Positions 21,344 through 58,494 of a DNA stretch of 64,000 nt are shown in pieces. Position 1 is the stretch's first letter. The number at the start of each line of letters is the position of its first letter. The stretch is from contig NC_092563.1 of NCBI RefSeq assembly GCF_037975245.1, forward strand, positions 14,186,001 to 14,250,000. The letters run 5' to 3'. The stretch is from Apostichopus japonicus (taxonomy: Eukaryota > Echinodermata > Holothuroidea > Aspidochirotida > Stichopodidae). A program made the position numbers and the translations under genes. The notes beneath the pieces were generated by a model. The model saw only the letters and a list, made by a program, of their open reading frames with translations, did not search any database and was not told the origin of the DNA.

Positions 21344-23279
21344 ATGGGAGTTTTTAATGTTCCCTTCATACCACGAGGATACCTGGGGGAGGTTGATGAT
21401 GAGTGGGGTATGCCCATCATTCTAGGAGGAGGAGGTGGTAATGGGGCTGTACAACTGATGAGGATCAAATCTACTCAATTACTTTGTGCAGTCAAGACCC
21501 AGTACATACATCTGAATGAAGAAACTGCTGGTAAGGTCAATAAACAAAATAACTCTTTTTTTTCAAATATTAGCATACTTTATCATTATGATGTTCGTAA
21601 ACCGTAAACTTTATAACAACTTTTCAATTTATTAAATGACGTTAAAGTCGAAAATTTTTCACTTTGTGTTTTTGTGTGCATTTGACTAATATAAGTATGA
21701 ATATGTGTCTGGATGACGAAATATTCAGATCCGAATGGAATCATTGAGTACTTTCTCGATAATATCCTTGATATTTTTTATTCGTTATAAATCTCAAATA
21801 TCTCAAATGATAACGTTGGAAAACATGGAAATTTAATTAAGAAATCGGTCAAAATTCTGTCAACAACAAAACGCTCCTTTAGCGGTTGTTTTACGAAATA
21901 GACATCCTCATTCCGGTAGAAATAATTTCTGCGAGTGTCGACGCATAAGAAAGAATAGATGGACGAGGTTTGAATGGCATAAAAATGAATATTACTTTAT
22001 TCCTAAACAAACATGCCAAACTATGAAGATAAAACGAAACAGTTACTTAAATGATCGGGGTACATTAAAGGGTAAAAGTGACTTAAGACGCCAATTACAT
22101 AGATTAAAAGAAAACTTATCCGTCAACATCGACGTCATCGCTTCCTCTTATTAAAACAAAATCGCGGCTCTGAATTAAACGTAAATGAATGTTTATCGAG
22201 TCACAAATAGTTGAATCCAGCACAGACTAGGCTTGGATCACGTGACTTCACGGCGACGGCGTACATGAGTGGCAGGATGACGTCACTTAATGATGTCATT
22301 TAATAAATATTCCACAGTTAAATAAATATATTTGCATAACCGGCAGTTGCGCAAAATTGCTCATTTTCATTGAGTAATCGAAATAAATTCCCTCATCTTG
22401 CGGGTGTCTCGTAAAATATAACAATTGTATATTATATGAAAAGCAGTGTCGAACAGGAGGGAAGGTTGATATTTTTTACCAAAAAGTATTTGATTGTTTT
22501 CACATCTAAAAGTTGCATGATGTTTCTTTCTCTTCAGAACTTTGCACGTGAAATCAGAATTTTGAAAGGATTACTAGGCTTGGAGTGCATTCCAACATTT
22601 TTCGGCATCACTTTGCCCCCAGATGATGGACCTTTTCCTGCTATCGTGCAAGAGTTCGTCAGAAACGGTCAACCGTACACTGCAACGTCACTCTATGATG
22701 CCACAGACAAGCGTCTTATCACCAAAAATAATTCTTTACAGATGGCGATGGATAAATGTTTGGCTCTGAGGGACATGCACGCCAGATATTGGTTGCATTG
22801 TGAAAGAAAATCGGACAACATTCTGTTGCAGACATCGAGTGTCGCAGACGATACTGAAGACCTCTGGAATGACGTCCACAGCATTGCATCATGGGAAGTC
22901 TAGATAAATTATATATCCCACGGGGTAAAATCCAAACTTCAACTTGATTTTGGTTTGACAATCAATATGAATAATCATAGCCAACATTTAATATTCACCG
23001 ACAAAAGACAAGCCGAGGTGCGGAAGAACTCCATTCATGTTGCACCGGAAGTAATTACAGGTCAAAGGCCATTCAGCAAAGCTTCTGATGTATATATTTT
23101 CCATCGGCCTCGTCCTGAAAGACCTGAATGTCGTCGGAGACGACATTCTGTTGCGTCTTGGAGATCAATGTATGAAACCTAATCCAGATGAAAGACCAAA
23201 ACTGGATGACGTCATAGACATTATAAATGTCAGGATACAGAGTGTGAAGATACCGACATGTTACAATGATGAACCTTAA
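21344..23279 (+). pseudogene. decayed protein-kinase gene
   Basis: A first exon (to ~21,535) gives a glycine-rich loop (GGGGGNGAV) and the AVKT lysine. A second exon after a clean acceptor (TTCTTTCTCTTCAG, ending 22,537) gives the alpha-C REIRILKGL, a LHCERKSDNILL catalytic loop, DFG, an APE-type HVAPEV and a CMKPNPDERP C-lobe motif. Damage: the usual HRD/HCD aspartate is Glu, an in-frame TAG lies at 22,901-22,903 with the frame resuming directly after it, and a frameshift lies near 23,090 inside the SDVY..IGLVL segment. The order and motifs identify a Ser/Thr-type kinase; stop plus shift plus lost catalytic residue indicate a pseudogene. The 5' end is not defined. A CRE-type TGACGTCA sits at 22,278-22,285 in the intron. 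Confidence 0.8.
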
Positions 23280-23405: not shown

Positions 23406-24476
23406 CTACTCTGACACAGTAGGCCTACTATCGACCTGATGGAGCGTCATGCCAAAACAGGAAAACGTAATCAGTAGCGCACCAACGGCGGTTAACCAAT
23501 TAGAAGCAATTTTAAGGAAAAATACTTGTAGTATATAAAGCAAAGCTATTTCGAATGTTAATATCACCGCTACGTTTACCACCCGTTCTCTGCGCAGAGC
23601 GGAGTATATACAAATCTGGGCGAGAAAATTACACGCAGCATATAACACGATGATGAATAAGTAATAAAATGGATCTGGTAAAGCCCATTTCTCGAATAAA
23701 AAACACAATCCAACGTTAACGATGAAGATGAATATATTACCGACTAACATCATCCAAAGGCGATCGACACCTAAATCCGACAATTTCCTAACCCATATGA
23801 AAGAAAGCGCCAAGGAAAATGCGCCGAGAGTCGCAAATATGATACCGACCATTTCTCCGTCTGCGCGCACTGCGGTGGAATTGCGGAAGAAAAACGACGG
23901 TCTCGCGATGAGTACGACACCTACAATACACACGGTAATCAGTAGAATATCCACCACCTTCAAGAATTGCTTCAGAACGATACATCCCAAAATGGCGCTA
24001 AAAACTGGTGAACAGTTAACGATGGAGATTGCATCAGCGACAGGAGCCAGACCGACTGCCCCGACAATGAAGTTTATACATAGACACATCGACGCACCAT
24101 AGAGCAACAGTAACGCGTACGATTGTCTACCGCTTGGAGTAGGTAGTCTCAAAACCAAGATGGAAACGAACGACATTGCCGACCCTAAAGGCGAGTAAAC
24201 AGCGATGATGAATAAGGAATCCATCCGTTCGGTTAAAATCGATAGACATATATCTCCAACAGTTAAGAAGAAGACACCACCAAATGCGAATAATATTCCC
24301 TTCGTGAAAATCCTCCGGAGCATGTTCGTCACGATATATTCCTCTGTTACTGTGCAAGTTGAGTTGCTGTCGCGAAAGTCGTCACAATCGCTCATGCGCA
24401 TTGGGGATTCTTCCCCAAAGACAGAGTTGGAATTCGCGGGAAGCTCCAAGCTTGTCTCTCCTGGTTCCTCTTCCAT
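23406..24476 (-). CDS. EamA/DMT-family transporter, SLC35G-like, 356 aa
   Basis: The reading frame is uninterrupted from ATG 24,476 to the stop at 23,406. An acidic, Ser/Glu-rich cytosolic N-terminus of about 50 residues is followed by about ten hydrophobic segments. These form two EamA repeats (roughly residues 55-190 and 205-340). The GAVGLAPVADAISIVNCSPVF-type helix with a conserved proline is characteristic of this family. SLC35G proteins are multi-pass membrane proteins with poorly known substrates; SLC35G1 has been linked to STIM1 and calcium handling. Upstream of the ATG, TTTCATTGCAG looks like a splice acceptor (exon start near 24,498), so a 5' exon may exist. The single long coding exon fits this family. 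The sense-strand frame at 23,722-24,102 is a shadow. Confidence 0.85.
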   Translation of the reverse strand: MEEEPGETSLELPANSNSVFGEESPMRMSDCDDFRDSNSTCTVTEEYIVTNMLRRIFTKGILFAFGGVFFLTVGDICLSILTERMDSLFIIAVYSPLGSAMSFVSILVLRLPTPSGRQSYALLLLYGASMCLCINFIVGAVGLAPVADAISIVNCSPVFSAILGCIVLKQFLKVVDILLITVCIVGVVLIARPSFFFRNSTAVRADGEMVGIIFATLGAFSLALSFIWVRKLSDLGVDRLWMMLVGNIFIFIVNVGLCFLFEKWALPDPFYYLFIIVLYAACNFLAQICIYSALRRERVVNVAVILTFEIALLYILQVFFLKIASNWLTAVGALLITFSCFGMTLHQVDSRPTVSE

Positions 24477-25663
24477 TGCAACAACTGGTTTGCTTGCCTG
24501 CAATGAAATAACATGGGCGATAATTATGATGCCAATTAGATAACATTAGGTGGAAAACTAATTGCCTATATATACAATAAATAAATAGGATTAAATGGCA
24601 TTTCATTCGAGACAGGGGGCAGGGTTTGTTAGGAAGGATAGACGGCTGATCTCGTTACACCGCGGTGCGTTATTTTATCTTTCAATGCTATTACTTTGAT
24701 TACGTTACTATATAGGTAGAAAATGTTCGATTAAATTGAAGCAAGTCTCATTCCAAAGTAATTGTGAATGAAAAGTGGATTTTTTTAATCCTTGAAAATT
24801 TCAAAACTTTGCGCTGTATATATAATATCACTATACAAGTAAGTTTTAAATTCGGCGTTGAATATGCCGAATTGTCGCAACACGAAACCATTCGCTTTTG
24901 TAGTGTTATCAATCTAATATATAATATGTTTGCTATGTGGCTTTTTCTCATCTTTAATGTTCACCATCTTAACTCTTCGGTTGTATACCAAAACTTTTAA
25001 CTATGGCAAACAGCTTTTTAATATCATTGACAAAAGCGGCCTTCACATTATCAACACTAACACTACTGCCAGGCCGATCGTATAGGAACTACAGACAGGA
25101 ACTTTTGGACTATATTGATAGCAATAACTCTCTAGCCACAATGGCAAGTAGCCTAACCTTCAGATTATAGACGATACAGGCTTTAGTGACCACCACATTT
25201 TCTAAACTACTTCCTCACTCAGACCAATTTGTCCGACTAACAGTGACTCTGACCTTAGCATAACAACTGCAACACTTTTAAGAATGATATTGACAATGTA
25301 ATGACCGACCCTAACCATCAACTTCAACAACATCGACTCAACCTATACAGACTTGACGCCAGTCAGTAGCAGTTTCCTGAATAAGTGCCCGCTAAAGAAA
25401 GCTCAAAACAGGACGAAATTGGCGGCGTTAAACCAATACTATTCTTACACTTATCAAGGCCAGGAGAACACTATACTACTAGAAACCCCATCACCCCCAT
25501 CCATCACCAGAAAGCAAATAAATTAAAGACAACATGTAGCGAGATCGCATGCGAAAGGGATCCCTCTATTTTTGTGGAGAATAGCTAGCAGTCTCCTTTA
25601 GCCTACTCTAGATTCGAGCCTCGGAAACAAACCAGCTATCTCATAAATAGTACAGGCAAATGG

Positions 25664-39770: not shown

Positions 39771-39776
39771 GCCGTC

Positions 39777-39905
39777 TATGGTTGGCCGTTTGGGTCATAA
39801 CGTCTGAATGAAACGCGTACCGTTTTTTTTTACGCGTAAAGACGTCTGAACGAAACGCGTAAGGTAATTGTTTACGCGTAAAGAATTTGGCCAATCAAAT
39901 CGCAC
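39777..39905 (+). repeat. left terminal inverted repeat with internal duplication and CCAAT box
   Basis: The outer 34 bases pair with the right end. An inner module ACGTCTGAAYGAAACGCGTA plus a TTTACGCGTAAA-type palindrome occurs twice in tandem (39,800-39,841 and 39,842-39,882) but only once at the right end. A CCAATCAAAT box (39,891-39,900) follows about 60 bp before the transposase ATG. The repeat probably serves as both transposase-binding end and promoter; this is inference. Confidence 0.9.
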
Positions 39906-39957
39906 CATTCCCTGAACGTGGGAAGATATTTATATTACACGTAACAATTATGATTCA

Positions 39958-42900
39958 ATGTGTATGATGGCAAATTCACGACGAATCAATACAATTCACG
40001 AACGCCTTAATCAGACAAGACAAGAACCTGTTTTTATGAGGCGTATGTTACGTGTTGTGGATGATTGTGTGCGACTATCCTCATCTGATAATGTCCCGAA
40101 CGAGACACTAGATTACTGCATTTTAAGGTATGATACTAGGAAAAACTACGAATAACGTAAGTTTAAGCCTAGCCTAGTGTTAGGCTAGGAACCACAATGT
40201 ATAGCCTAGGCCTAATCCTAGGCTAGAACTTTTTAGCCTACTGTAGGCTAGCATAATAGTTGACTGATATGTATATTACGCACTTAACAAATGATTCATA
40301 CTAAAGTTAGGCTCTGGACATTAGGCATACAGCCCTAGGCTATCATATTCATAGGCACAAAGTAGAACTAGCCAACAGTTACCTTAGGCCTAGACTGAAA
40401 TAGCCAGTACGATGCTGCATTAATTGGTGTTAAAACTGTTATATTGATGTTGGGTTATAAAATTAACGTAATTATCAATGACATTTTCATATATCTTTAT
40501 AAAAATTTCCTGGATCCACCCTTGTATGTACCAGTCATGATCCTTGAATCATGATCAGTGCATTAGCCACACGGCCTCCACAGTCCACACTATCACACAT
40601 ACATAATCACCCTGTTCCATAGATGCATGTTTCTTGCCAAGTTGCCAATATAATATTGATGTTGTTATGCACTGTTTATAGGGAAACAATTTTAATCTTT
40701 CTTATACATGTGATACAGTAGAATATTATTGTTAAGTGACATCAGTATCCCCTCTACATTTGAATTAATTTATTGATCATGTTTTTCATGTTGTCTTTTA
40801 AAGACTTGAAGCATTGGAGAGAAGTGTCCAGCGTGCACGTGGAACTGTTGTAGATGATAGAACGTATGATGACCTCAATGAATTACTCAAAGGACTCATT
40901 GAAGAATTTCACAAAGGGAAGCATGATAATATTGGTAAGTACATTTTCCACTACATTACATGCCCACTTCAGAATAAAAATTTTTTTTTTTTTAAATGAG
41001 CTATTTAGCATCAAAATAATTCTTCCCCTGTTCTGTGAAAAAAATAAAAAGGGAATATACACATACCAATGTATTAAATACAACAAAACAAAGATTATTT
41101 GGTTGCTAAATTCTAAGAATTTTGCTGTTGTAACTGTACACATTTCTGAAAAGTATATATCTGGTCACTATAGATGACCTACATACATGTAAGAATGAGG
41201 CATGCAGGTGTGACGTGTGCGTCAACATTCCCAACCTGACTTAGCCGGAATAAAAGGTTTTTGTGTTTGACCCTTGTTATTCTCAAATATCTTGAAAAAA
41301 AAGCAAAATAGCAAGGGTACACCTTAGTCACTTTAAGACATCTCAATAACAAGTGTTTCCTTAATTTTAACTTGACCCATGTTGATCTCAAATGACATTT
41401 GACCTCTAAAGAAAGGATTTACCTACTACGAATAACCATCTATTACCCCCAATTTTATGCAAATTGTCACACACATATGTATGCACGGAGCACACACAAA
41501 AATCAGCTACATTTCTACGTTCACCCTTTTTTAATATATTGCTTTTTGTCTTTCAGTTCACACAGGTTATCAAGCTGAAAGGACATTACAAACAAGAGGG
41601 GCTCCAAAATACAACATCAGCAGAGATCAACTTTCATTTCTTCTCCATTGTGGCTTTGGCACATCAAGGATATCAGAACTGCTGGGAATTTCAGTGAGCA
41701 CAGTAAAAAGAAGAATAAGGTACCATGTTGTGTTTTTTCACAAGTTTATAATTTAAATTTTTTTTTGATGATTAAGGAAAAAGGTCCTGTCCAGAATAAG
41801 GCTTTATATATCTTGCTTGGTGGGCAAATTATAGCATATGTGTGTGCCTGTCTGTGTGTGTTTCATTGGCTAAATTACATAATTTATGAATCTGAAGCAA
41901 TGAAGCTTTTTAGCATGTTATGATCAGAACTATGTGACTGCTGATGGCAAAACCTTCTAGCAAAGCTAGTAGTTCTCGAAACTGACCACTCTTTGTCCAT
42001 AAAATATGCCAATTAATTCGGCTAATTTTGCATAATTTGTGAAGGTTAAATGGTACCTATACAACTACACTAAATCAGCTATATGCTTAGTTTCTCACCA
42101 TGTTGCACCTTTTCCCCTAATTCCATGGGATGGGGTTAAGGCAAACGTTGATTGGCTAAGTTTCATTACTGATGATGTAAATGAACTTGACATCTTGACT
42201 AGACAAAATTTCGCCCATAATGGTGCAATATTTCAGTTTAACAGAGAGTTAAAAAGATGATACTTGCATTGGTGATGACCTTTTAGTACAATAGCATTGA
42301 TGTTTATATTTTATTTTATTCTCAGAACATTTGAATTACAATCTCAAGCTGAATATAGTGCCATCGGTGATGATGAACTTGACAACTTTGTACGGCAGGA
42401 GATAAGTAGCAACCATAGGATAGGTCCAAATGCTGTGAGAGCCAGACTCTTCTCACACCAACATAGAATTCAGAGATGGAGAGTTCGTGAAAGCATGTTA
42501 CGAGTTGACCCTGGTGGAGCAGCATTAAGAACAGCTCCATCAATGCAGCGCCGAACATATAGTGTTGCTGGGCCCAATTCCCTTTGGCATATTGATGGAA
42601 ACCATAAACTGGTTAGGTGAGTTCAAAGATAAGGTATCATGTTTCGATAATTATTAGTGTTTGCACCGGGTAGCAAAATTGGAATAATCCAAGAAACTGA
42701 TAATGAAACTGTTCGAACATCTTCACATCATGTGACAGCTTGTACACTAGCTCATTAATATACAAGTTATGAACACAAGAAAGCAAAGTGCAAATATTCA
42801 TGAGGCATACAAAATTGATCTAATATATCATTTTGATATACCATCTTTGACAGATTGTCATAACATGCACACACTACTATATAAATGAATCTGCCTTTGA

Positions 42901-43884
42901 CATTGTAACCGAAAAGATAAATACATTTATCATTGCCGATGATATGTGGTATGTGTAGCCAAATCCATTTTAGTATGCTACATGTCGCTAACATGGCCAC
43001 AGATATTGACTTTACATATGTGATTTACCCCAAACTCCCATCTTATACTCCTGCTACTAATGACCAGCACATACACAAGCATGACTTCCAGTGTTCCTGT
43101 CTTGACATATATGACATATTTTTGCATGTTTATTTTCAGGTGGAAGATGGTTATCCATGGAGGTATAGATGGATTTAGCAGGCTAATTGTTTTCCTGCAT
43201 GCATCTAACAACAACAGAAAAGAGACGGTGTTTGAACATTTTGTCACTGCTACAACTCTCTGTGGTATTCCTTCTCGAATTCGAGTTGATCATGGAGGGG
43301 AAAATAATGATATCTGTGATGCTATGGAGCTACTCAGAGGACCCAACAGAGGTTCTGCAATACGTGGTCGTAGTGTCCACAACCAACGAATCGAGCGGAA
43401 CTGGGTAGATCTTTGGAATGGAGCTACACATTTTTTCTATGATTTATTTCACTTCATGGAACAGAGTCACCACCTAGATGTAGATAACCATACACACATG
43501 TGGGCATTACATTACATTTTTTTGCCTCGTCTAAATGCAGAGCTCAAAGCATTTGTAGACCAGTGGAACAACCATGGTCTACGTACAGAAGGTCATCAAA
43601 CACCAATGCAGCTTTTTGTTGGCCATGCTTTGGAACTTAGTAATGCAAGATTAACTGCAATGGAGGATATATTTAGATCCACAGATACTCAAGCAGTGTT
43701 GTTTGATGGTGAAGAGTGGGATGATCAAGGAATTGTGGCTGTTGATGAGCTTTGGTGTCCACTGGAAGAGGAAGCCGTGCAGAGATTGAGAGAATCAATC
43801 AATCCACTTTCTGAAAATGACCAACTTGGAATTAGTTCATACTTGAATGTGCTAACATTTATTCACGAACACATGCAAAGATAA
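39958..43884 (+). CDS. DDE transposase (HTH plus integrase core), 499 aa, five exons
   Basis: Exons are 39958-40127, 40804-40934, 41557-41719, 42326-42616 and 43140-43884. All introns are GT-AG, phases match (2,1,2,2), and the total is 1,500 nt. ATGs at 39,964 and 39,967 are alternatives to 39,958. Residues ~118-152 form a helix-turn-helix (SRDQLSFLL.. then ISELLGISVSTVKRRI). The integrase-like core has D245 (LWHIDGNHKL), D302 (RVDHGGEN) and E337 (NQRIERNW), with 34 residues between the last two. It would bind the inverted repeats in the nucleus and carry out excision and insertion. The HGGIDGFSRL block is typical of animal integrase-core proteins of this group. No stop or shift is present, so it may be active. 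An AATAAA at 44,510 is a candidate poly(A) signal. Confidence 0.92.
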
Positions 43885-46800
43885 AAATGAATTCCTAAAC
43901 AAAACACAAATGTGTGTCAAGATTCCTTGTCCTAAAGTATACAAGAAATCAATGTGGGTGACACAGACCAATAACCCCCCCCACCAATTGGCCACCATTG
44001 ACCCCCCCCCCCATATGACCACATCAGACACTATTAAGCCCCAGTATGCATGTGTCCAGGTTATTAATCCCACCAAAATATTTAATACTTTATTGATCCC
44101 TTTCTGACCCCAGAAACTTTATGACATTATTTATGTCATGAGGTATGTAATTCACCCCCCCCCCCCAAAAAAAAAAATTGACCAAAACAAGTTACCAAAA
44201 AAAATTGAACACAAAAATTGATTTTGTTCGGTTTTTAACAAATATTTGTGTATGTTCAGTGGAAATTTGACTGTCTCTTTTTACAATGACTTTTTCTTGG
44301 GAGATGCTACTCTTATCTGTAATTGTTTTGCTTTCTAAAACCACAAAATTGCCTAGCCAGCCCATTTAAGGATTAGTCTAGTGACAAATTAAACTGGACT
44401 GAAAAAAAGTAACCTATGCAATTAAGTTGGAATATGCAATGTATTTGTTGCGATGATTTGGCATGTTTGTATGTTGTGATCGAGTTGGCATGTGTGTATA
44501 TGTATGTTGAATAAATAGCTGACTCAGACAATTAAAGGGATAGTCTATAGTGAAAATAGGTAATGAACTAAATCTGGTATTACATGTACCTATAGAGTAT
44601 AGGGAAATCTTATGTGAGTGGGGTATGATTAATGTGTTGATAGTAAGGTGTGAAGCTGGTAAAATGTGATGGGTGGGGGGTGGGGGGGGGCAGGTGGGTA
44701 GGGTGATGTCGGGGTTGTATGATGGTAGGTAAGGCTGCAGGTGGTATGATGGTAAGGGTTGCCTCTGAGTTGGGGATATGGGTTGTGCTGTATACTGATC
44801 CCCAGGTGGTTGTCTCGAGAGGGGGGGTGGGGTGGTGAAATGCCTTTAGTCAACTATATCACTTTCTTCAACTTTAATATGTTTATCAATTGAGGCATTA
44901 ATTTTTGGTTTTGTTCATGATGGCCAGGTAACCTACAGGTTAGCATGTTTGCAAGTGTATGTGTACTTTTAAAATATCTGTAAATATATTGAACAACTGG
45001 TAGATATGCTCCATGATTATTACATGGACCTCATTGTTTTTGTTGTCCATTACATGAATATGTGGATGGGGCTTGTAATCAATTTCTTAAAATGTCAATA
45101 TTTTTTCAAATATATGTCTGATCACCTTCATACTTGGTGGGTTGGTAGTGCCACATGATAATGAAATTTCATTTATATTCATGAGTGCAACTATGTCTGA
45201 TCAGCTTCAGTTTGGGTTCAGTTGTCTGGCAATAAGTACAATAAAGATATTTACAACAAAAAATCTGACTTAAATTATTTCACAAAACTCTCATCGGAAC
45301 CACTAAACCTTTGGGTTTTCTAGAGAAGACATAATAACTACTGTCCAGTAAATTCAAAGATCAGACCTTGTGGATTTTTTTAAATGAATATATACAGTCC
45401 TGCATGTATCAAGTATTAAATTAATAACTTGTAATGTTTAACTGATCTTTTATTTTAGACCACTATAAATTGCAGTTTTCATCTAAGTAATGCACTCAAT
45501 ACCACAAACAATATTAATAGTTGGTTAATAGGCTGTTTGATCGTAATGACTCACATTTGTAATGAAGTAGGTTTAGCCCACCACCTTAAGATTGTTTTGA
45601 TGCATGTTGTTATTTTATAGTCTGTTCAGGATTTTTAAACTTATTTTCATTATGACTTATTTGGTAGATGAAAAGATAATATAATTCTTGAACAAAATTC
45701 TTGCATTTATATGCATCAACATGTCACATCCTATTATATGGGGCTTTGACCACTCTCATTTCATGTAAAAGGTTGGCAAGGTTTAATATATTGAAATCAT
45801 ATAGAAAGAATTCAAGATGCAAAGTTTCTGGTGTAGTGGAAATATATGATGGACTGGTAATTAACAATGATGAAGAGACACATTTCAAGGTTTTTGTAAA
45901 AACTTGGCTTTTATAAAATACCATGGATAAAGAAAAATTCATATGCAAATCTACTATATATGTTACACAAACAGCATGAGTTAAAATTGTACTGCTAGAC
46001 AACGATTGGTTTTTTAAGAAATGTAATAAAAGTCTGCCTAAAATAAAACGTCATGGAGGGATAGAATATTGTTCAAGCATGGCATTGGATGAGTTGAAAA
46101 TAGCAATTGCAAACACATTGCTGTTCTGGTCATGACGCTTTTGCATATACCAGTTTAACCTACTATATGATATATATGGTAATATTCCATATGTATAAAT
46201 ACTGCTTATGAAAAATGTACATGTGAAACTTTATGAAATACTATGGACGGATAATAGTTCATATTACACAAACAGAGCACAAGTTAAAATTGAGCTGCTA
46301 GATGACTGTGGACTTTTTAAGAAATATAATAAAAGTCTGCCTATAATAAAACATCATGGAGGGATAGAATATTGTTTAAGCATGGCATTGGATGAGTTGA
46401 AAATAGCAATTGCAAACACATTGCTGTTCTGGTCATGAAGCTTTTGTACATACCAGTTTAACCTACTATATATGTATAAATACTGCTTATGAAAAATGTA
46501 CATGTGAAACTTTATGAAATACTATGGACGGATAAAAGTTCATATCACACAAACAGAGCACAAGTTTCTATGTTAAAATACTGCTTTTCCATGGATGGAT
46601 AATAGTTAATATCTACTATATATGTTACACAAACATACCTTCAATGAAAGTATATAGCAGTTAATAAAGCTAAAAATGAAAGTGTAACATGAGCATGTAA
46701 ATATATTTAAAAATGAAGGCAACTCACCAGCATTTTCATTTTTTTTTAACAACAGAGTAAAGGACATTTTTAGTGGAACCACAGGAGCACTAATGGTGCA

Positions 46801-47128
46801 TTAGATCATATAAAACTATGAAATGTACGGTTCTAGCCAGTATTTTGTTTAAACCAGGCAGAATTGAATATTTACTACCCAATCCAATACCACTGGCTTA
46901 TAGTACTGATAACAAAACATAATCACTACTTCTGATTCTAACTGCAATAAATTCTGCAGGCTTTTAAGGTGTTTCAGAAAATTACCAAAAGAATGTTCAA
47001 CAAAGAATTTTGAAAGTGTGTAGGCAGACAGTGAGAGTGAGACAGCACAATCTTTTAGGCTCTACTGGTATGATTAAGAGCCAAAAAATTACATGAGTGC
47101 TGTGTATTAAGGTTATTGCACATGGCAT
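43885..47128. other. non-coding spacer between the two convergent transposon genes
   Basis: Contains probable 3' UTRs, a GGTGGG-rich tract (44,665-44,850) and a tandem duplication (45,885-46,570). No third gene is recognised. Confidence 0.5.
45885..46570 (+). repeat. ~290-bp tandem duplication, two copies plus a partial third
   Basis: CATTGCTGTTCTGGTCATGA ends copies near 46,134 and 46,438 (spacing 304). The block AAATGTACATGTGAAACTTT starts copies near 46,211 and 46,493 (spacing 282). Copy 2 contains a 76-codon open frame (46,208-46,438). Copy 1 has the corresponding sequence but not the same intact start. The frame has no recognisable domain. Confidence 0.8.
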
Positions 47129-48110
47129 TTACACAAAGCCAATTTCCCAGAAGTCTGAGTTTAACTGGCGTACCAGTTCATTCTTAAACTCCTTGTAACT
47201 GGTGTAACTCACAGGTACCTCAAGAGTGCTGGTACATGTATGAGCGACAAACCGTCGCTGAAGACCAACGAATGAATTAAAATAAACCTCTATATTTGGC
47301 ACTGCCATAGCATCACTCCCTGTACAAAATCTCAGAAACTTCATGAGAAGTTCCCCTTCAAAAGATCTTACAGCTCTGATGAGGTACTCCAAAACCTTTT
47401 GCTGTAGGCTGTTCTCAGGCTCAGCTTTCAGGGACTTTGCTACACTCTTACCAGTCGGTTGTAGAGAGTTGTATAAATCAATAATGCCAGAAATTGTTCT
47501 GAATTCTTGAATTTCAAACAAAATTTCAAGATCCATTGAAGCAAGGGCAAAACTGGGCTTCTGGATAAGTTCAACCTTTGCACATTGTAATGTGATGGCC
47601 GAAAGTGTTTCTGGTGTGATTTGGCAGGTGACACCCAGCCTTCCAAACAACACCAACAATGTTTCAAGGGTGTCTTCATCAAATGCATGCATGTCAAGTG
47701 CCTTCCTCAAAACATCACCTTCATTCCTACTGAGAGTTGCAACAAAGCCCTCCATCAGCAGATCATCACAGACTTCATTATCGCCATAAATTGCAGATAT
47801 GAGGCATGCTTTGCTAAACTGTATGGGGAAGTACCCCACACTATTAAATCCAATATACAGGATTTTCCCCATAGTTTTAAAATCTCTTGGGGTAAGATGT
47901 GGGTGAACTGTGGGTATAAACTGACCATCACCTACAAAGTATCTAGCAGAAACTGTCTGCCAGAACTCTGTCAGTGCATCCCTAAATATGCCTTTAGCAT
48001 CCACACCCTCTTCTCCAAAAAATTTAATTCTAAATATGCACTCCACATCGGCATCTCTGAACAATTCCAGCATATCTTTTTCAATGTAATTTCTTCTCAC
48101 AGTGAAAAAC
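47129..48110 (-). CDS. HECT catalytic domain exon
   Basis: This last exon encodes the entire HECT domain. It starts at an FFTVRRNYIEKDML block, as in HECT N-lobes. It contains the GVDAKGIFRDALTEFW segment and ends with the C-lobe: LMKFLRFCTGSDAM, then VAHTCTSTLEVP. The active-site Cys codon is 47,234-47,236. The C-terminus FWEIGFV keeps an aromatic residue near the end, as HECT ligases require. The frame is fully open. The HECT is compact and resembles G2E3-like and transposon-associated HECT proteins more than NEDD4-type ligases. Confidence 0.92.
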
Positions 48111-51100
48111 CTGAAAGGTCAATAAAAAAGAAAGTCTCTAATGAATATAGAAAGTATACCTCTTCATATAAAGGTGAGACATGGTAATTGTAAAAGTGAG
48201 TAAACAATAAATCCCCTTAAAAATTATTGTGCATCGCACTTTGACTTATATGCCAAGCCCTTTTAATATATAAATCTGGTTATATCGGTCAATAGGCCAT
48301 GTTTGTTTTGAACATTAGGTGACCTTTGACCTAAAAATAGTATCTGTTCAATTTTGGAGTATGCAACTCATTTATATACTAGCTTAATTTAAGTTTTACT
48401 TATTGAGTTAACATGATAACAATATTTTTACTATTTGACCTCTGGTGACCTTTGACCTCTTGTAAAACAAATAGCGATTATATACTAATTATGGGCCTAT
48501 GTGCCATCTATCAGATTTGTCCCTGTTTCTCCTAATGAGAAAGCATTCTTTGAGGATTTGGGAATAAACATTTACAATACATTAAATTCAAATTTTTGCT
48601 TACCTTGGGGTTGGTACCCATTCTGGTGGTGGTGATGGAGATCTTGGTGAGGATGGTTGTCTTGGTGAGGGTGGTGGTCTTGGTGAGGATGGTGGTCTTG
48701 GTGAGGATGGTTGTCTTGGTGAGGATGGTTGTCTTGGTGAGGGTGGTTGTCTTGGTGAGGGTGGTTGTCTTGGTGAGGATGGTTGTCTTGGTGAGGATGG
48801 TTGTCTTGGTGAGGATGGTTGTCTTGGTGAGGATGGTTGTCTTGGTGAGGGTGGTTGTCTTGGTGAGGATGTTGGTCTTGGTGAGGATGGTGGTCTTGGT
48901 GTTGAGTATATCAATGCATGAGTTTGTGACCTTAAGAGGGAATAGAAAACTGATATGAAAACTCTCTATAGGAAACATACATATGAGAATGAGACATTCA
49001 ATAAGCTAGTTCGTAGATAGCCTATGGACATTATACGTATAGAGGTCACTGGTCCGTCTGTGAGAATTTTCTCTTTGGCACACGACTCGCAAGCACCATA
49101 TATGTGTACACACTATTTTGCATTAACGAAAACAAAACAAAGAAATGTAACATTCCCGAAATGGATGGAATTGGATCCTACATACATCCATGAAATACAG
49201 CTATGGAATGTCACGACACCCCAGGAGTTCTTGAGGGAACATTTTCGTAGAGCATATCCTAGCTGCGTTTGATAGGCCTAAGAACTACTTGCAAAAGGTA
49301 AATCAGATTTATTGGTGCAGAGATTGGGGTTAGGATATACATAATATTGGTCCAAACGTTAGGATACAATATAGGCCTAGGAAATGTAACGATGCGGTGA
49401 TTGACCGTGGATTATCAATTTTAACCGTGAGGTTATCATCGATTAACTCATGGTCAGCTGACTATAATGGACCAATCAGATTGTAGAATTGTAACTAGGT
49501 ATGAATTAATAAAACTTTAACACCCAAATTTAACGTCAATGACCAATAACTCACGGCGGGTTCGACGTCAAGACTGGTGGCGTCGATGTGACACTTGGTG
49601 CAGGCCTTTGAATTGTTGGGAGGACTCCAGCTTGTGCTGATTTGAACTGGACCTTCAAAAGAAATAGTAATTTGTATGTTGGTATTTGAACTATTTTAAA
49701 TAAGATTACAAAATACAAAGAATGTCTGCATACAAAAAAAAAAACAGAAACATCGAAAACAATGAATAACGAAGTGCTCAATAGCTCTTAAGTGCACCAA
49801 TGACAACAAATGATCCACTATTATCCAATGTTAATTGCATTCCATTAATTGCATTGTGGCCAGACTCCATGACCATCAATAACACTTGATCTAAAATATC
49901 TATACCACTGGAGTTTCTTGAAAATCTATGAAAGACTGAATTCAATTTTTTTTAAATGAAACATTTTAATTTGCACATTCTGATAAATTTATTTTTGTTG
50001 TACAAGCCCCAATTTTATTCCTTGTTGGAGGTGTAAGGAATCTATGCAGTCATGCATGTGTGTCTGTCTGTACATATGTCTGAGACACTTCTTTTAAACA
50101 CGATAAGTGGAAGACGCAAGGTCGGACATGGCTCATACTTGGGTGGTAGATTACCCATAGTGAGTAGATGATCCCAATTGTTTTGGTGGAGGTCAAAGGT
50201 CAGCAGAGGTTAAAAGATGAAAACATTGTAAACACCATAGCTTCACTAAGGAAACTTCAATTGAGTTCATACTTAGTATATATGTTAGCCATGGTAGATG
50301 ATCCCTATTGTTATTGGTAGGGGTCAAAGGTAATATGAGGTCACCAGTGGTCAAACACTGAAAACATTGTAACTTATCAAAGTAAACTTCAATGAAGTTC
50401 ATATTAGGCATATATGTTAGTCGTAATGAGTATATGGTCCCTATTATTTGAGAAATAATTAATCGACCTTCACTTATCTGATGATTTTAATACCAAAGAC
50501 AAGGAATCATGTAGCCCTCAGCTCTTGTCTCTATAGTGCTACATGTTTTCATGCTGAATCTGCCATGTGTATTTTCTATATTTGAGAATGAAAATCAACA
50601 AAAACAATTGTAGCAATACCACTGTTACATATAACCATACTTACACTTGGTGTTCCTGCATCAACAAATGTACTTCCCTCTTCATCAGTGGAATTATTTT
50701 CCTCCATCTCTCCATCCTGTAAACAAGCACAAATTGTATGTGCATGTTGTCATTCCTTGTCAAAGTACCTGTACACCTTTATTATAAATTCATTGTCAAT
50801 GTCTTGACATGTACCATATATATTTTTGCCATTACAATGTTTTTGATGCTTATATCTTGTATATGTTGTCCTCATGTTATCTCTGACCAAAAGCAATATG
50901 GCTCTTGTACTCATGGCCAACCTACATACATGCTAAATATGCACTTCATGTTCACCTTATTGAGTTATGTTTATGCATAACTTACATCATCAATCCATGA
51001 TACTGTAAAAGTTGTAGGCCTTGTTATTCCAAGATCCTTCAGCTTTTTTTTATTGCTGGGAATATCCTCCACATTTTTGAAGCTTGGTTGTCCCCCAGGG

Positions 51101-54100
51101 CAGGCTATTGTGAAGGCCTTCGTTGCAGAGGATTGACACCCTACAAATAGCATCAGTTCCTGAAAGAAGGAGTATTATGTAATATACATTCAAGTTGTTA
51201 TTCTATTGATGAATATTGTACAAAATTTGTTTGAGACCTGGCCACCATCTCAACTTCAATCCTGTTATTTTCCCTCATTTGTTTGTGACTCAATGATTGT
51301 GACTCTCAGTTTGACTACATGGGTCTTAGTTAAAAATGCCACATTTATTAAGACATTTGTAGCAAAGGTGTTTCCACTGGCTCAGATGGGATGAAGGATT
51401 CAGATAATCATATCCATCACCATATTCTATCAAGGTTTTTGGTTACGATGCCAAAGACCAAGTAACCTATGCGATCATGTTTAGGAATTCACAAAATCTT
51501 GGAAACTATAGTCCAACTAGTGGCTGCCCATGATGATTAGAATGGCCCTATTTTTTGTATCTACAGTCCTTGCCAAAAATGTTTGGCCCAAACAGTCATT
51601 AAACAGCATACTGTTAATTTGCCATCAGTGCCCCCCCCCCACCCTTTCTTCCTGATATTGTAGCAAAATCCTTTCAGAACATGCAAGACTGATATGGGGA
51701 GTGGTTTTGTCAAGGATTGTATGGATGTATTGTACCAAGGATTGTCTGAAGCCTGTACAAAAGTATAGGTTACATATTTAATATTCCTGACAAGCCTAGT
51801 TGCATTAGCCAAATGAGACATTTTGAAGCAGTTCTGTTGATTTCATGTTAAATGAGGGATGCTGTTATACAAAAATGATAAAAATGATAGTATAAATTTC
51901 TTTTTGCATAATACATTAATTAGGTAATAAAATCCCTATTCAATTCATGTTCCTACTTCTACAACTGTTTCTATTTTCTACAACTATGTGCCAGTGCAGG
52001 GCTAATAAGGACAAAGGAAATAATAACATTAACTCACATCAACAGTGCTGTCCTGAGTAACTCTTCTTAATCTGTGGGTACCACTTGGCAGTATAAACTT
52101 AACTGGGAATCCAAATGGCGATTCATCCTCTGGATCGAGCATTTGTGACCGTCTCTGCAGCAGGTTTGCCTTTATAAATAAAACACAAATGTTTGTAGCG
52201 ATGCAATGGGATACAAATAATATTGTCTGGATAATTTCATCATGACTTATAGTGTAATGGCAACAAAGAAGCAGAATATGAGGCAGAACTATTATACTAT
52301 GAGATTCATCTTAGTTTCCCCCACTGAGTTAGCCTGATTACAATGTTTTCAGTGTTTGACCCATGGTGACTTTAAATGACCTCTTATAAAATACTCAATA
52401 TGGCTGACCTACATACAAAATTTGAATTTCATCCACCTTTCCTCTTCATTGGGCAAGGTGTCATACAAACATATTACATACACAGGTGAGCATTACATTC
52501 ACTCAGTGTGAGGAATTCATTCAAATATCCAATATCCTAACCTAGTAGGATAATAGAAATGGATAACCTTGACACTACCATAAACTTTGTTTATCTAGAG
52601 AGGACTTGGATGTATTGTATTCCTTCTGAGGACTTAAATTTCCTTTGACTGAATACCCACACACACATGCTGATGTGATTACATAGATCCCTTTTACCTT
52701 TGGCAAGGAATACAAAATTGATGAATCGTCTTAATGCTTACAAGCTGATCTCGATTTTGGTGTTCTTCTTTTGGCAAAGGATCCCCTGTTTCAAGTACAT
52801 CTGGAAGCTATATCAGAAACAGATTAAACAAATATTTTTTATTATACTAGTTTGTGTTTAGTTCTAAAGAGTTCTTATAGTTCTTCTTACATAATACATA
52901 TGTAGCAGAGTGCTATTTTAGCCACTGTTACTATTTTCCCCCCATGTGGTCAAACTCCCCCATTTGTACTGGTAACTATGTCATGTACATAGGGCATTGA
53001 CTTCTAATACAATTGATGTCTGTTGGGAGTAAGTAGTGGTTAACTAGAGAGAGACAAGGAGTCTATCTCTGGCCTGATTGTTTATCTTTTATCCACTTTT
53101 CTTTCTTTGTTTCCCTTTATTAATTTTTTTGGCTCTGATTACTTCTGAGCTTCCTGTTCTCACCCCTTACGCATTCCTGCGCTCCCAATGTGTGTTTTGT
53201 GGTAACACCCCTTATGTTATACCTGTTAGGAAGCAGCATCTGGCTTCTCTCAACTGTAAAGGCAAAACAACTCTTCTTTGTTTGTGGTCATCGGCCACCC
53301 TATAATTCTAAGTGTGAAGTTAAGATGTTTAGGGCTTAAAAACCTAGCTACATCCAATGGATGCATCTCTCATCTGCCGACACAAACAGAGGCAACACCT
53401 TTACCACTCCTGAGAGAGAGTTGAAGACAATTTCATATGTCTTCATGATATACTGCATATTCTGATTATTCAGGTCCTACCGTATACATGTACTCTGAGA
53501 TACACACCCTGGTGATGGCCTTGGACATTTAGACGCCTGGTAATACTTATAGACGCCGGTTGTATTGAAATACCTAGGGAAGGGGCTACTCCACCCAATG
53601 GTCCCCCGAGCGGTCTAGAAACGCTGGATTGGCACGACTGCGCACATGTCCGAGTGCAGTATTTTCTAGTTTTATAGTGTCAGTAGTCGTAACAGACTAC
53701 AAGAGCGAGAGTATATTGTATATTTATCAGTTCGTAGTTGTGGGAATGCTAAAATGCATATGTATCCACACAAACTGAGTCATTATTATTATTATTTGTG
53801 TTTATGATCTCATGTGTTCATATTCAGACCATATAGTTTATAGTAGAACAGTACTGCTCCTTGATGGTATGTCGTTGCGTGGTTACTGGACTTTGCTGAA
53901 TATAGAAGCCAGTCGTTACCCTATCATAAATATTTCTGCTTATTGATTTGTGTATGTTTTTTATTAATTTCTAAGCTTCCGTCCCTATTCTAGCTGACAA
54001 TTAGAGTCATTGTAAACATCCCTAACCCCGCTGCTCCTATGTCGTAGGTACATGGCGAGTAGTCGTTACACATATGTAATACACTGATATTTGTAATGTT

Positions 54101-57100
54101 CATTCCTAAGTATATCAAGCACAAATGCCTTCTCACATAAGTAGAGGTTATCCCCTGGCAGAGATTAATCTACCATAGCACTTGAGGTTGATTGTGGGCC
54201 CATTCCTAAAATTGCCTGCCACAAGTTATTCATACTGGTCAGTCTTTATTCCGGCACCAAATACTTCACATTACAGGTTATATATAGTCAATCAAGATGA
54301 AGTATCTTGCAAGAAACACAGGTACATTGACATATAGTTCAATGAATGATAAATATGATTAATATGTACCCCTGTATTTTGATCTGCAATCAGGGATTCC
54401 TGAAACTCTGCATCCTGCTGGCAAACAAGACAAGCATCTTCAACAAATGTTCTTCCACAGTCTGAGCATATCTAAAAAAAAATATTCAACAATCATTTGT
54501 CAACAAGCAACAAATGGTATCTTCAGACGATGCCCCATGATATAGGAGGGGCATGAAAAGCTTTGAGTAAGCTTGGGTCGCCTTTGTCCAATTGATATAT
54601 CATTTCAGTGCCCCGACCAGGCCCCAGTCTATCATGACATATTATTTTTAGCTATGAACTCGGGCAGTGTGACCCTGTGAGGCTCAAACCTGATGTGCCA
54701 AGGTTTAGTGGAGAGTGGACCAGAGTGGGCCCTCAGGATGTAGGGCCCAGAAACATGCCAAGGTCCTAAGATTGTAAGTTCCGTAAGTGACTGGTCTTCT
54801 CAAACTATGGTGCTGAAAGGTCTGGGGAATTCCCCCCCCCCCCCCCCCCCCGCATGTTGAACCTACATTCGCTTAGATCTCCCTATGAAAATTAACTCAC
54901 CGTGGAGGTTCCAACTTCATCCTCATTAGTAGCCTCATCAACAGCCTCATTAGCATTATGTTGAACCTGTTATTTAAGCACAAATTGTATAGTCATTTAT
55001 TAACAGGGTAACAAAGTAAGTTTTTAATTATAAATAACAACATGAAACAACAGTAAAACATGAATTATTTTACTACAAAATGCATAAATATGTCTCAAAG
55101 GCTGTAAACAAAGTACTCCATTTAATAATCTTAAATCTTTAAAATGCACTATACCTCTGTAAGTGGTCTTATATAAATGCATGAGCGTTTAAGCCCAACC
55201 CACGTCTTGATGGCATGAGGGCAATTAACACCTTCTGGGAAAGGTTCCAGCTTTCTGCCACTGCTTGCTGGTCCACAGCGACACAATTCAAACTGAACAC
55301 CTTCCAGAGATGGAAATTCTTGTCTCAGGCGCATTAAAAAGTTTGTGCAAGACAGCTGCAAAGGAAGGCATAATTTCTTTTTATAACCTTGGCTGGTGTC
55401 AACTGTTGGAAGAAGAGATAAATACATGCAATTATTCATGAATCATTGCTTTACAAGTTAAGTCAGATGATCAAAGTTGATTTTAGTCAGTTAAAGATAT
55501 ATAGCTATAGTATAGCTATAGCTATGAGTTTCATCAAAGTTTCCCCTTTTTGAGTGAGTCAGATTACAAGGTTTTACGTTTTTTACCCATATTGATCTTA
55601 AATGACCTTTGACCTCTTATAAAAAAAATATAGTTCATCGGCGCAATATGGCTATCATACGTATGAATGTTTGAATTTCATCTAGCATTCCCCTATTGAG
55701 TTATCCTGATAACGAGCAGGCATCACAAGGTGGGTTTTGCATTTAATCTGAGAACTCCATAGAATTATTCTCTATCATAACCATGACAATAACCTAACCA
55801 TTGTTTAAATGTCCGAGGACCTTTTGTCCTATTTAATTTTTCTTCCTCGGACCTGAGGCTGAAAGTCCTTTTACAGGTCCTCAGACCTGCTGCAAAATCT
55901 GTCCACACACACATACATGCCAACGTGATGACATAGATTCATTTTACCTTGGGCAAGGAATAAAAAATTATCGCTACAATCCCTACAGCATGAGAAGGTA
56001 TTCAATTGTTTTATGATGTCCTCTAATCTCTACGATCCATGGATTATGACATTTGACCTGGTAAACTGAAGGTAGCACTACCCATGTATCATCATTTTGA
56101 CTTACATTAAAAAGAACTAAAGAAAATTATGTAGGCTTTCAATTGTCCTTTGTACTAAAATTCCCTAAGCCCAACAATGGCATACAACCCATAATCAATG
56201 GGTCTACTGCACCATCAAGATCCATGAAAGCTTAATTGCATGGTACCTATTTACACAAGTGAACAGATATATAGATAATGATAAATATTAGATAAATAGA
56301 TAAAGAAAGAGCACAGTCACAATAGCTCAACCTTGCAGCAAACTTATATCACTTACCATTTGTACCTTTGACATTGTTTTTCGTTGTGCCCGATCTGACT
56401 AAAATGTAAGTATTTGTGTAAGTTTTCTGTTTTTTCTCCGCTTGTTGTGGTCTTCTCGATACAGCTATGGGGACACGTTGGAAATTGTTGAATCTTAAAA
56501 TAGGAAAAATGAAATAAGTTTATAAGTATATATAGCTCCATAAATGTGTGATAAACATAAATTTTTAAATAAGGTATGTTTTCTGCAAAAAAAACATGAA
56601 TGACTTATTCATCAGGCTGTAAAAATAGCGAACATGCCTTGAATTATTTAAAAAGTCATGTTTAATCCTGCACGCCACTCACTGTTTCCCTATTTTTCAG
56701 CATTTACATATAGCATTTATATCTAGGCTACCAAAACATAATTGCAAAATGGATTTTCTGAAAATTGTTTACAGTATGTAAAAATACCTCAGCCCAGCTT
56801 GGGCAGAATAGGCTACACCAGAATGATCGTTTAAATAAGCAGTAAAACTCATGGGTGCAAGGGCGGCGCCAGTAGGGGAAAGGTTTGGGGGCTGTGTGTG
56901 TCCCAAACTCCCCAATCAACAAATGCTGCCCCCCCCTTGGGATTGGTCATTACCATAGTAATATAACTGATGATCAATCGAATAGGCAACGCAATAGTGA
57001 TAATTTAACTACACTCTCTAAAGTTAGGCCTTGGGGGCTTAGGCCTACTGTGCCGCATCTAATTCATGGATGATCAGTTAAAATAAACAGCATAACAGTG

Positions 57101-57956
57101 CCCATTCAACAGATGATCAGATAAATCAGCAGCAAATTCAATCATTTTGTTGTACTTTTGGACTCACACATCAATCCAACAATGCACCGTAGGCCCCTAG
57201 GCTACAAGCGATGTTTCAGGCTATAGCCTAAACCTAGGCCCCTATAGCCAAGGCCTTACATTATGTAAAAAGGTCTGGGCCTAGCCTATAGACCTTATCG
57301 CAAATAGGAGACCACAAAGCATCTTGGGAAGAAATATTCTGAATGGTCCAGCTTGGCCCCATACACAAATGGCAAATTGTAAATTTACTTTCGTCTATTA
57401 CATTCTGTGATTTTCTTAAGAAAATTGTTAGGTTTCTTTTGACTGACTCAGAAAATTTGTGGGTTTTCTTTGATCCATAGTGGTCTGTAAACATTCTTGT
57501 GGAATGATTTTACATTGCCTGGCTACGACAAGATCGATGGGACGGACAGTGTTCGTAATAATCCTCCCCAGAATGCAATTATAAAAACGCACTCTTCCAA
57601 TTTGCGATAAGGTCTAGGACCTATGCTGTTTTTAATAGGAATAGGGCCTTTTAAGTTTAGGCCTAGGGGCTGAGCTAGGATTAACCGAACTTATTATTGT
57701 GTCCTCGCCAATTCAGGCACTGTTACTGTAACGTTAGTGTTAGGCCTAGAACTATAGCCTAACTTAGAGCCTAGCTAGGCTAGGCCCTAACCAGGGGCCC
57801 TAACGTATTTACTTACTCAGCAACGAAATCGGTGGGAAAATTCCTTGAAGTTGTAGGCATAACTGATGAGTGATGTGGTGAATGAGGCCTGTTTGCCACT
57901 CGATTGGAAAGGTTATGAAGTCTTTGTTGAAATTCTTGGATCCTATTTGGGTCCAT
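47129..57956 (-). CDS. HECT-type E3 ubiquitin ligase encoded by the transposon, 847 aa, twelve exons
   Basis: Exons, 5' to 3': 57956-57817, 56493-56357, 55402-55155, 54966-54901, 54471-54370, 52807-52742, 52169-52038, 51159-50986, 50716-50645, 49652-49555, 48930-48604, 48110-47129. Every junction is GT-AG, phases agree throughout, and the total is 2,544 nt. Layout: basic N-terminus; a segment ending CIYIRPLTE (93-175), probably ubiquitin-like; a zinc-binding pair C199-x2-C202 and C211-x2-C214, followed by DAEFQESLIADQ as in UBX proteins or UIMs; a UBX-like fold (about 274-355); an acidic linker; a Pro/Arg/Ser hexapeptide repeat (412-520); and a HECT domain (522-847) with catalytic C813. The predicted role is E3 ligation of ubiquitin. 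Its target (transposase, host repair factor or silencing factor) is unknown. Confidence 0.85.
48307..48470 (+). repeat. intron repeat with TGACCTTTGACCT motifs
   Basis: GTGACCTTTGACCT occurs twice (about 48,319 and 48,447) in a region that resembles 52,320-52,500 and 55,545-55,700, all in introns of the HECT gene. Shared blocks are GAGTTA..TGAT.ACAA, TTTGACCTCT.GTAAAA and ATATGGCT. A related stretch lies in a transposase intron (about 41,265-41,410). Confidence 0.6.
48642..48900 (-). repeat. 18-bp coding minisatellite
   Basis: About 14 copies of GGTTGTCTTGGTGAGGAT or one- to three-base variants. In the HECT gene frame (- strand) they encode SSPRQP/PSPRQP hexapeptides joining the UBX-like part to the HECT domain. 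Unit length is a multiple of three, so copy-number change keeps the frame. Open frames in two other registers here are repeat artefacts. Confidence 0.95.
50060..50450 (+). repeat. two ~150-bp repeats related to the 19.6-20.8 kb array
   Basis: Shared blocks are GAAAACATTGTAAACACCATA, GGTGGAGGTCAAAGGTCA and GAGGTCACCAGTGGTCAAA. The copies lie in the HECT gene intron between 49,653 and 50,644. They show that this repeat family occurs both inside and outside the transposon. Confidence 0.7.
52320..52500 (+). repeat. intron repeat, second copy of the TGACC-rich family
   Basis: Aligns with 55,545-55,700 through GTTTTCAGTGTTTGACCCAT, a TTAAATGACCTCTTATAAAA block, CAATATGGCT and TTTGAATTTCATC. It lies in a HECT gene intron. 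Confidence 0.6.
52808..54369. other. longest HECT gene intron, no exon recognised
   Basis: The intron between the exons at 54,471-54,370 and 52,807-52,742 has no further coding match. The 75-codon + strand frame at 53,078 is pyrimidine-rich and unsupported. Confidence 0.5.
55545..55700 (+). repeat. intron repeat, third copy of the TGACC-rich family
   Basis: Contains ATGACCTTTGACCTCTTATA and the CAATATGGCT and TTTGAATTTCATC blocks of the copy at 52,320-52,500. Confidence 0.6.
56494..57816. other. first intron of the HECT gene
   Basis: Rich in TAGGCCTA palindromes (57,180-57,300 and 57,640-57,800), mirrored by the first transposase intron (40,150-40,400). A G/C-rich remnant (about 56,857-56,940) looks like a decayed hAT MITE without a matching end. 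Confidence 0.5.
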
Positions 57957-58045
57957 TTTGTGTTGCTCTGTCGTTACAGTCATTAACTGTCTTAAAACTA
58001 TACACCTTGCACTTGTATGTTGTACTAACGCGTCACAGGTGGAAT

Positions 58046-58133
58046 TGCGTGCTTTGATTGGTCAAATGTTTACGTGTAAAGGATTTACCTTACGCGTTAC
58101 ATTCAGACGTTATGACCCACACGGCCAACCATA
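58046..58133 (-). repeat. right terminal inverted repeat with CCAAT box
   Basis: On the - strand it reads TATGGTTGGCCGTGTGGGTC, then ATAACGTCTGAATG, one ACGCGTAAGG module and ACCAATCAAA. The CCAAT box (58,057-58,061 as ATTGG on +) lies about 100 bp before the HECT gene ATG. It lacks the inner duplication seen at the left end. Confidence 0.9.
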
Positions 58134-58494
58134 GCCGTCTACGTCGTTACATGTCGCAGGCCCAAAATTTCTTAGTAGCTGCATATATGCACGCACAGTG
58201 ATTGCATTAAGAGTTGAGACCGTTAACTTACTTAGCCAGATCTGATATTACAAGATGACTTCTCCTGACCTGGATACCGATGACGAGTAGGCCTACATTA
58301 TCATTGGAAAATATCTTTCGTCAGGACTGTACCCTGAAAAGTCTACGATAAATCTAGAAAGATCGATAAGGGGAAGATCGAGGAGTTTTAGACTGACGGG
58401 AGATGCCGATCTAGTTTACGTCGGCCCACATGGCAACGAAGATAGGCCCTTGGCCAAAGCCCAGAAAATTAAAGCTTACAAGAAGGGTTTGGCG

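Follow-up and report, generated by a model that had tools for sequence, protein, structure and literature searches.

We analysed a 64,000-nucleotide window of the Apostichopus japonicus genome (C3:14186001-14250000, contigs being numbered with a C; coordinates without a contig are window positions), in which an earlier note had claimed a complete transposon at 39777..58133 that carries a DDE transposase gene and a HECT E3 ubiquitin ligase gene. This stretch is a complete transposon of about 18 kilobases (kb), as borne out by its end repeats, the GCCGTC duplication and the presence of both genes inside, and the boundaries 39777 and 58133 are correct. The ends comprise the following features.

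39771..39776: left target-site duplication, GCCGTC
39777..39823, plus strand: left terminal inverted repeat, beginning TATGGTTGGCC
39813..39881: subterminal ACGCGT(AA) repeats adjoining the left end, candidate transposase binding sites
58087..58133, minus strand: right terminal inverted repeat, terminating in ..GGCCAACCATA
58134..58139: right target-site duplication, GCCGTC

Comparison of the two ends reproduced the reported identity of the inverted repeats at 33 of the outer 34 bases and extended it to 41 of 43 and 43 of 47, with an exact inverted stretch of 20 bases common to both ends. When the two ends of 300 base pairs (bp) were shuffled as a control, a shared inverted 13-mer arose in 2 of 2000 shuffles. 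The flanking 6-bp duplication is perfect, as had been claimed, reading GCCGTC on both sides. Six of the eight ACGCGT motifs in the window fall inside the two terminal 150-bp stretches, which suggests that they are putative transposase binding sites.

Two genes meeting tail to tail

The transposase gene begins near the left end, the HECT gene near the right, and both are read towards the middle, so that they meet tail-to-tail. The transposase start codon is 181 bp from the left boundary and the HECT start codon 177 bp from the right one, positions which make it probable that the two end regions each contain the promoter of one of the genes. Both are predicted gene models, built manually from splice signals and open reading frames. 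In agreement with the claim of two fully open multi-exon genes, the transposase model has five exons (ATG at 39958, 499 amino acids) and the HECT model twelve exons on the minus strand (ATG at 57956, 847 amino acids), both free of internal stops and with GT-AG introns throughout.

39958..40127, plus strand: transposase exon 1, start codon
40804..40934, plus strand: transposase exon 2
41557..41719, plus strand: transposase exon 3, weak helix-turn-helix Pfam matches at about residues 126-160
42326..42616, plus strand: transposase exon 4, first catalytic aspartate, D245
43140..43884, plus strand: transposase exon 5, bulk of the rva_4 integrase core including D302 and E337, stop codon
57817..57956, minus strand: HECT exon 1, start codon
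56357..56493, minus strand: HECT exon 2
55155..55402, minus strand: HECT exon 3
54901..54966, minus strand: HECT exon 4
54370..54471, minus strand: HECT exon 5, two CxxC pairs recognised by eye
52742..52807, minus strand: HECT exon 6
52038..52169, minus strand: HECT exon 7
50986..51159, minus strand: HECT exon 8
50645..50716, minus strand: HECT exon 9
49555..49652, minus strand: HECT exon 10
48604..48930, minus strand: HECT exon 11, proline/serine-rich linker
47129..48110, minus strand: HECT exon 12, HECT domain, catalytic Cys813, stop codon

The identity of the first protein as a DDE transposase was confirmed by a Pfam match to PF24764, rva_4 (E-value, E, 2.1e-85), a profile which we take to cover IS3EU transposases, together with the triad D245-D302-E337 (spacings 56 and 34), assigned by eye. 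NCBIfam returned a weak IS481 match (E 5.7e-5), far under its cut-off. As to an HHCC zinc motif before the catalytic core, Pfam gave the weak helix-turn-helix matches and no integrase zinc domain, no dedicated motif search having been made, and a transposase exon compared with solved structures gave no match at E 0.1.

The second protein is predicted to be a HECT E3 ligase, as claimed, on the basis of a Pfam HECT domain above the curated gathering score of 23.9 (29.4 bits, E 7.9e-07; 32.2 bits in another search) and a putative catalytic cysteine, Cys813, which lies within AHTC in the C-lobe and aligns with those of TOM1 and HUWE1. The gathering score is also exceeded by families 2, 3, 7 and 8 of the related elements described below. 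Among solved structures, a HECT profile built from seven families matched HUWE1 across the two lobes (E 1.1e-16); its matches to E6AP, RSP5 and NEDD4 fell mainly in the C-lobe. The window HECT sequence alone gave weak matches to HUWE1/TOM1-type structures (E 6e-5 to 8e-4). The ligase had also been called multi-domain. The HECT domain stands, whereas no further domain was recognised by the libraries and the CxxC..CxxC pattern of exon 5 was seen by eye only. The first roughly 500 residues matched nothing credible in Pfam or among solved structures, where one of two N-terminal pieces searched gave a meaningless match (E 1.9) and the other none. Single-sequence structure prediction for the HECT protein reached a mean predicted local distance difference test score (pLDDT) of 34, too low to be informative.

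The exon 11 linker is a proline/serine-rich tandem repeat, and a tandem duplication of about 306 bp lies between the two genes (window positions ~45960-46566), where copies of the element show indel differences. As to a viral source of the HECT gene, no relative of the HECT exon was found in viral contigs, 0 of 23 pattern matches being confirmed. Elsewhere in the window, three host-like neighbouring frames encode a C2H2 zinc-finger protein (15585-17345, plus strand), a kinase-like exon below the Pfam cut-off (22415-22903, plus strand) and an EamA-type transporter (23406-24545, minus strand).

Copies and relatives in the genome

The genome searched comprises 671,581,487 bases in 35 contigs. A search for other full-length copies, which the earlier note had proposed as a check, yielded three loci in all, with both genes between the repeats in each: the window element (copy A), copy B (C6:9733116-9751790, 18,675 bp, 99.6% identical to copy A at aligned positions) and copy C (C12:10474482-10492955, 18,474 bp, 99.4% identical to copy A at aligned positions). 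Their target-site duplications read GCCGTC (C3), ATAGTA (C6) and GTCGTC (C12), the last of which, lying in a GTC repeat, counts for little on its own. Both genes are open in all three copies, with GT-AG internal splice sites, and encode transposases of 499 amino acids each and HECT proteins of 847, 841 and 871 amino acids, the latter differing because the linker repeat varies (SPR count 14, 13 and 18, the frame staying open). The copies differ by 0.22-0.32% substitutions in exons versus 0.46-0.68% outside, and the transposase by four synonymous changes and one non-synonymous change; the window element is recently copied.

The left 124 bp of the element gave at least 12 matching stretches, all at five element loci, and thus no short non-autonomous derivatives with the same ends. 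Besides the three intact copies, these loci hold two older, decayed copies on C17 (18.41 and 16.10 megabases, Mb), both with transposase and HECT remains; in the 18.41 Mb copy the ends lie about 49.5 kb apart, apparently via insertions (the middle was read in part). Copies with the same ends and no HECT gene, which the earlier note had named as evidence that would tell against it, were therefore found at 0 of 5 loci.

The pairing extends beyond the single element first reported and recurs in nine families of this genome. The HECT exon, used as a query, matched 43 stretches (52 of 52 candidates were scored) that group into 33 loci. Twenty-one of these lie less than 10 kb from a transposase match, all 21 tail-to-tail. 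They define, besides the family of the window element, eight further divergent HECT families tail-to-tail with the same type of transposase. DNA similarity within families is mostly 83-100%, and a full comparison of HECT proteins from seven families gives 23-58% identity between families.

Family 1: the window's element (C3) and its copies
Family 2: C18:1.40, C8:13.96 and C19:16.33 Mb
Family 3: C16:42.96 and C17:3.93 Mb
Family 4: C7:2.36 Mb
Family 5: C1:19.50 Mb
Family 6: C17:16.85 and C17:21.14 Mb
Family 7: C17:6.33, C16:29.80, C12:27.83, C12:28.16 and C17:20.49 Mb
Family 8: C16:5.80 and C1:12.27 Mb
Family 9: C17:23.45 Mb (C17:23449281-23452341)

Complete elements were delimited in two further families. 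In family 2, one spans C18:1395604-1408618 (13,015 bp, flanked on each side by CATTAA, with inverted repeats some 500 bp long) and the C8 copy is likewise complete (13,189 bp, duplication TTATTT). In family 7, one spans C16:29793053-29813839 (20,787 bp, CGCCCG, inverted repeats of about 525 bp) and another C17:6325041-6345475 (20,435 bp, duplication CTCCCG). The transposase and HECT matches fall between the element ends in both families (family 7 having been read in part). For families 3, 4, 5, 6, 8 and 9, the evidence is the neighbourhood of the two genes.

A tally extended with Pfam profiles combined 143 transposase matches (150 of 224 candidates scored) and 96 HECT matches (122 of 122 scored) with 52 of 87 transposase exon matches and 33 of 43 HECT exon matches, the omitted ones, compared by eye, each falling in a locus already included. 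Same-strand matches less than 6 kb apart were merged into loci, and one element may count as two loci. Among the resulting 83 transposase and 74 HECT loci, a HECT match was present within 15 kb of 40 of the 83 transposase loci (43 at 30 kb or less), with the nearest HECT tail-to-tail each time. Random shifts at 15 kb (n = 500, each contig's extent taken as its last match) gave 1.1 pairings on average and never more than 6, against the 40 observed. An extra tail-to-tail pair, about 14 kb apart, was noticed by eye outside the tally at C17:18.51-18.53 Mb. Thirty-five HECT loci have no transposase within 15 kb, and the strongest Pfam HECT matches are among these; the latter are presumably ordinary host ligases, and others of the unpaired loci are decayed copies.

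Four open transposase frames of 306-431 amino acids with no HECT match within 15 kb (C17:19327331, C20:27732746, C21:12249102 and C18:14910806) are candidates for HECT-less relatives or for genes taken over by the host. C17 holds 21 of the 43 transposase loci with no HECT match within 15 kb, and HECT-less elements may accumulate or persist on this contig.

The two genes share a deep division among families. HECT identity is 38-43% among families 2, 4 and 5 and 38-58% among families 6, 7 and 8. In the transposase, the rva_4 match is unbroken in families 2, 4 and 5 (profile positions 2-153, 2-154 and 2-179, the last with stops) and opens with a separate short piece (2-21 to 2-49) in families 1, 3, 6, 7 and 8, a split that we read as an intron there, as in the window transposase. 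Since the same division appears to run through transposase and HECT, these patterns are compatible with a long shared history of the two genes.

The catalytic cysteine is invariant in the seven-family alignment and was retained in 17 of the 17 frames covering more than 250 residues, which come from copies of seven families. Selection on the ligase was assessed in young pairs of families 1, 2, 3, 7 and 8, which were picked because both members are open, the frames taking in some sequence upstream of the domain. The pooled ratio of non-synonymous to synonymous rates (dN/dS) of the HECT gene was 0.21 (p 1e-6), from 24 synonymous changes at 1799 sites and 17.5 non-synonymous changes at 6197 sites.

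Relation to known transposons

By four features, the element would be classed as IS3EU: TA..TA ends, a 6-bp duplication, TAYGG ends with repeats longer than 30 bp, and an integrase-type DDE core. The IS3EU label given earlier thereby fits the published hallmarks as far as the consulted part of PMC10045372 describes them (TA..TA ends, 6-bp duplication). Termini are TATGG..CCATA in families 1 and 7 and TACGATGG..CCATCGTA in family 2, and a 6-bp duplication flanks 7 of the 7 copies with both ends read (GCCGTC, ATAGTA, GTCGTC, CATTAA, TTATTT, CGCCCG and CTCCCG). The pattern TAYGG..CCRTA with repeats longer than 30 bp is found in families 1 and 7, whereas family 2 ends in TACGA and shares TA..TA only.

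IS3EU, or GingerRoot, elements were described by Kojima 2023 (PMC10045372), in the sections consulted, as having TA..TA ends, usually 6-bp duplications and an integrase-type DDE transposase, and 45 IS3EU families, 17 of them autonomous, were counted there in Repbase in 2022. The window element resembles them in ends, duplication and transposase type, and its weak IS481 match agrees with the relation described in that part of the paper. In contrast to those elements, it has a large second gene and a length of 18 kb, and in the same sections the words 'hect' and 'ubiquitin' occur zero times. Fungal IS3EU elements (PMC12730594, available to us in part) carry a TET/JBP dioxygenase and an alpha-kinase, with TAYGG..CCRTA ends, repeats longer than 30 bp and 6-bp duplications. 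They share with the window element the ends, the duplications and an accessory enzyme, the alpha-kinase, opposite in orientation to the transposase, but differ in the kind of accessory (dioxygenase and kinase) and in their fungal host, and 'hect' and 'ubiquitin' appear zero times in the portion covered. The 'Intons' likewise combine IS3EU ancestry with extra conserved genes but are fungal, and the excerpt at hand does not name the proteins.

In Ginger1, by the excerpts of Bao et al. 2010 used here (PMC2836005), an OTU or Ulp1 protease domain lies at the transposase C-terminus of elements of 2.6-7.1 kb. An integrase-like transposase is thus tied to the ubiquitin/SUMO pathway, as in the window element, which has a separate ligase gene instead of a protease domain fused to the transposase. 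Its ligase is like HUWE1/TOM1-type HECT ligases in that both lobes and the catalytic cysteine align, and unlike them, in a comparison that covers solved structures, in an N-terminal half that resembles nothing in the searched libraries. Among the papers listed in the open PMC literature, with Repbase, Dfam, preprints and subscription papers outside the search, none was found that links HECT ligases to IS3EU or to any other cut-and-paste transposon; in the part of PMC3520738 seen, 'IS3EU' and the letters 'hect' both occur, the latter within another word, and the two also co-occur in PMC8965078, on methylation in buffalo mastitis. PMC4255032, whose wording had seemed pertinent, proved to be unrelated. 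IS3EU elements with accessory enzymes (fungi) and ubiquitin-pathway proteases (Ginger1) are already in print.

What the ligase may do

Best explained, the locus is probably a complete IS3EU-type cut-and-paste DNA transposon in which the HECT gene is a retained working part; that it is an IS3EU element with a retained, functional HECT gene is, judged from sequence, very likely. A working part, and no stray passenger, is indicated because many related transposons of the same genome carry a HECT gene in the same place.

Several observations weigh against this reading. At 43 of the 83 transposase loci, no HECT match lies within 15 kb. Although many of these loci are fragmentary, others contain open frames of 268-431 amino acids, so that HECT-less lineages may exist. 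One HECT locus outside the tally (C9:14.34 Mb) lies head-to-head with a 24-residue transposase match (C9:14.33 Mb). Between families 9 and 1, the transposases are 65-69% identical and the HECT proteins about 25-37% over the aligned parts, a discordance that argues either against strict co-inheritance or for a very rapidly changing HECT; exchange between families could be involved. The decayed copy at C17:18.44 aligns a leucine to the cysteine position, albeit in a poor alignment. The selection test draws on a small number of changes, in pairs preselected as open: among the pooled pairs, dN/dS is lowest in family 8 (0.05) and highest in family 7 (0.89, with four changes), the family 1 HECT pairs give 0.25-0.45 with too few counts to decide alone, and the pool rises to 0.38 when pairs with truncated members of families 4 (0.52) and 6 (1.11) are added. 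The two old family 1 copies give 0.72-1.43 over both genes, near neutral, as expected of dead copies.

If the element works as proposed, both genes would be expressed, and the DDE transposase would cut at the TATGG..CCATA ends and join these to target DNA at positions staggered by 6 bp. The ligase gene would be retained as a working part of the element, and its product would ubiquitinate a host protein that limits transposition, such as a silencing, checkpoint or repair factor, which the N-terminal half would select. Given a retained, functional HECT gene, such a host target is a possibility that we favour tentatively, because HECT diverges more than the transposase in family 9 and in family 3 (versus the window, transposase 43-47% and HECT 31% identical). 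This divergence argument is only suggestive because, between families 2 and 1, transposase and HECT are both about 32% identical.

Alternatively, the ligase might act on its own transposase, capping its dose or dismantling the complex after the cut and thereby keeping copy number low. We consider this unlikely. It would agree with the small number of copies (five family 1 element loci, although three are intact) and with the genes starting near opposite ends, so that separate control would be possible. However, low copy number has many causes, and a moving host target would better explain the contrast between families 1 and 9, the equal divergence of families 1 and 2 notwithstanding.

HECT ligases act in ubiquitin/SUMO-controlled repair pathways. 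A ligase that aids DNA repair, bringing repair proteins to the vacated donor site or the newly made joints or clearing them from there, is also conceivable, and we give it the same low standing as control of the transposase. It has a precedent in the proposal, in the section of Bao et al. 2010 consulted (PMC2836005), that the OTU and Ulp1 domains of Ginger1 act via ubiquitin/SUMO-controlled repair, but no repair-specific domain was recognised in Pfam or solved structures. A role of some other kind, again given a retained functional HECT gene, is less likely still.

Passive carriage of a host HECT gene trapped between the ends was rejected as highly improbable. Gene capture by transposons does occur, passive transfer of fungal TET/JBP genes from one transposon family to another is reported in the portion of PMC12730594 seen, and family 9 hints at HECT exchange or fast drift. 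Mere cargo, however, accords poorly with the same orientation at 40 of 40 neighbouring loci in nine families, with the conserved catalytic cysteine and pooled dN/dS, and with a HECT gene in all five family 1 end loci. An assembly artefact or chance neighbours can be dismissed, as three near-identical units occupy three loci with different 6-bp duplications and random shifts fall far short of the observed pairings.

Returning to the ligase as a working part of the transposon, the element might, more speculatively, belong to an ancient animal IS3EU lineage in which HECT is an obligate second transposition protein that diversifies against host defence or repair, like viral ligases.

The idea that transposons use the ubiquitin pathway dates to 2010 and came from protease domains, according to the part of PMC2836005 consulted, and the open literature searched holds no clear ligase case for it. 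Genome annotations may count transposon genes such as these as host HECT ligases. The intact copies make the role of the ligase directly testable, and a ligase that keeps its active site in several divergent families would mean that a transposon can profit by directing the protein-tagging system of its host.

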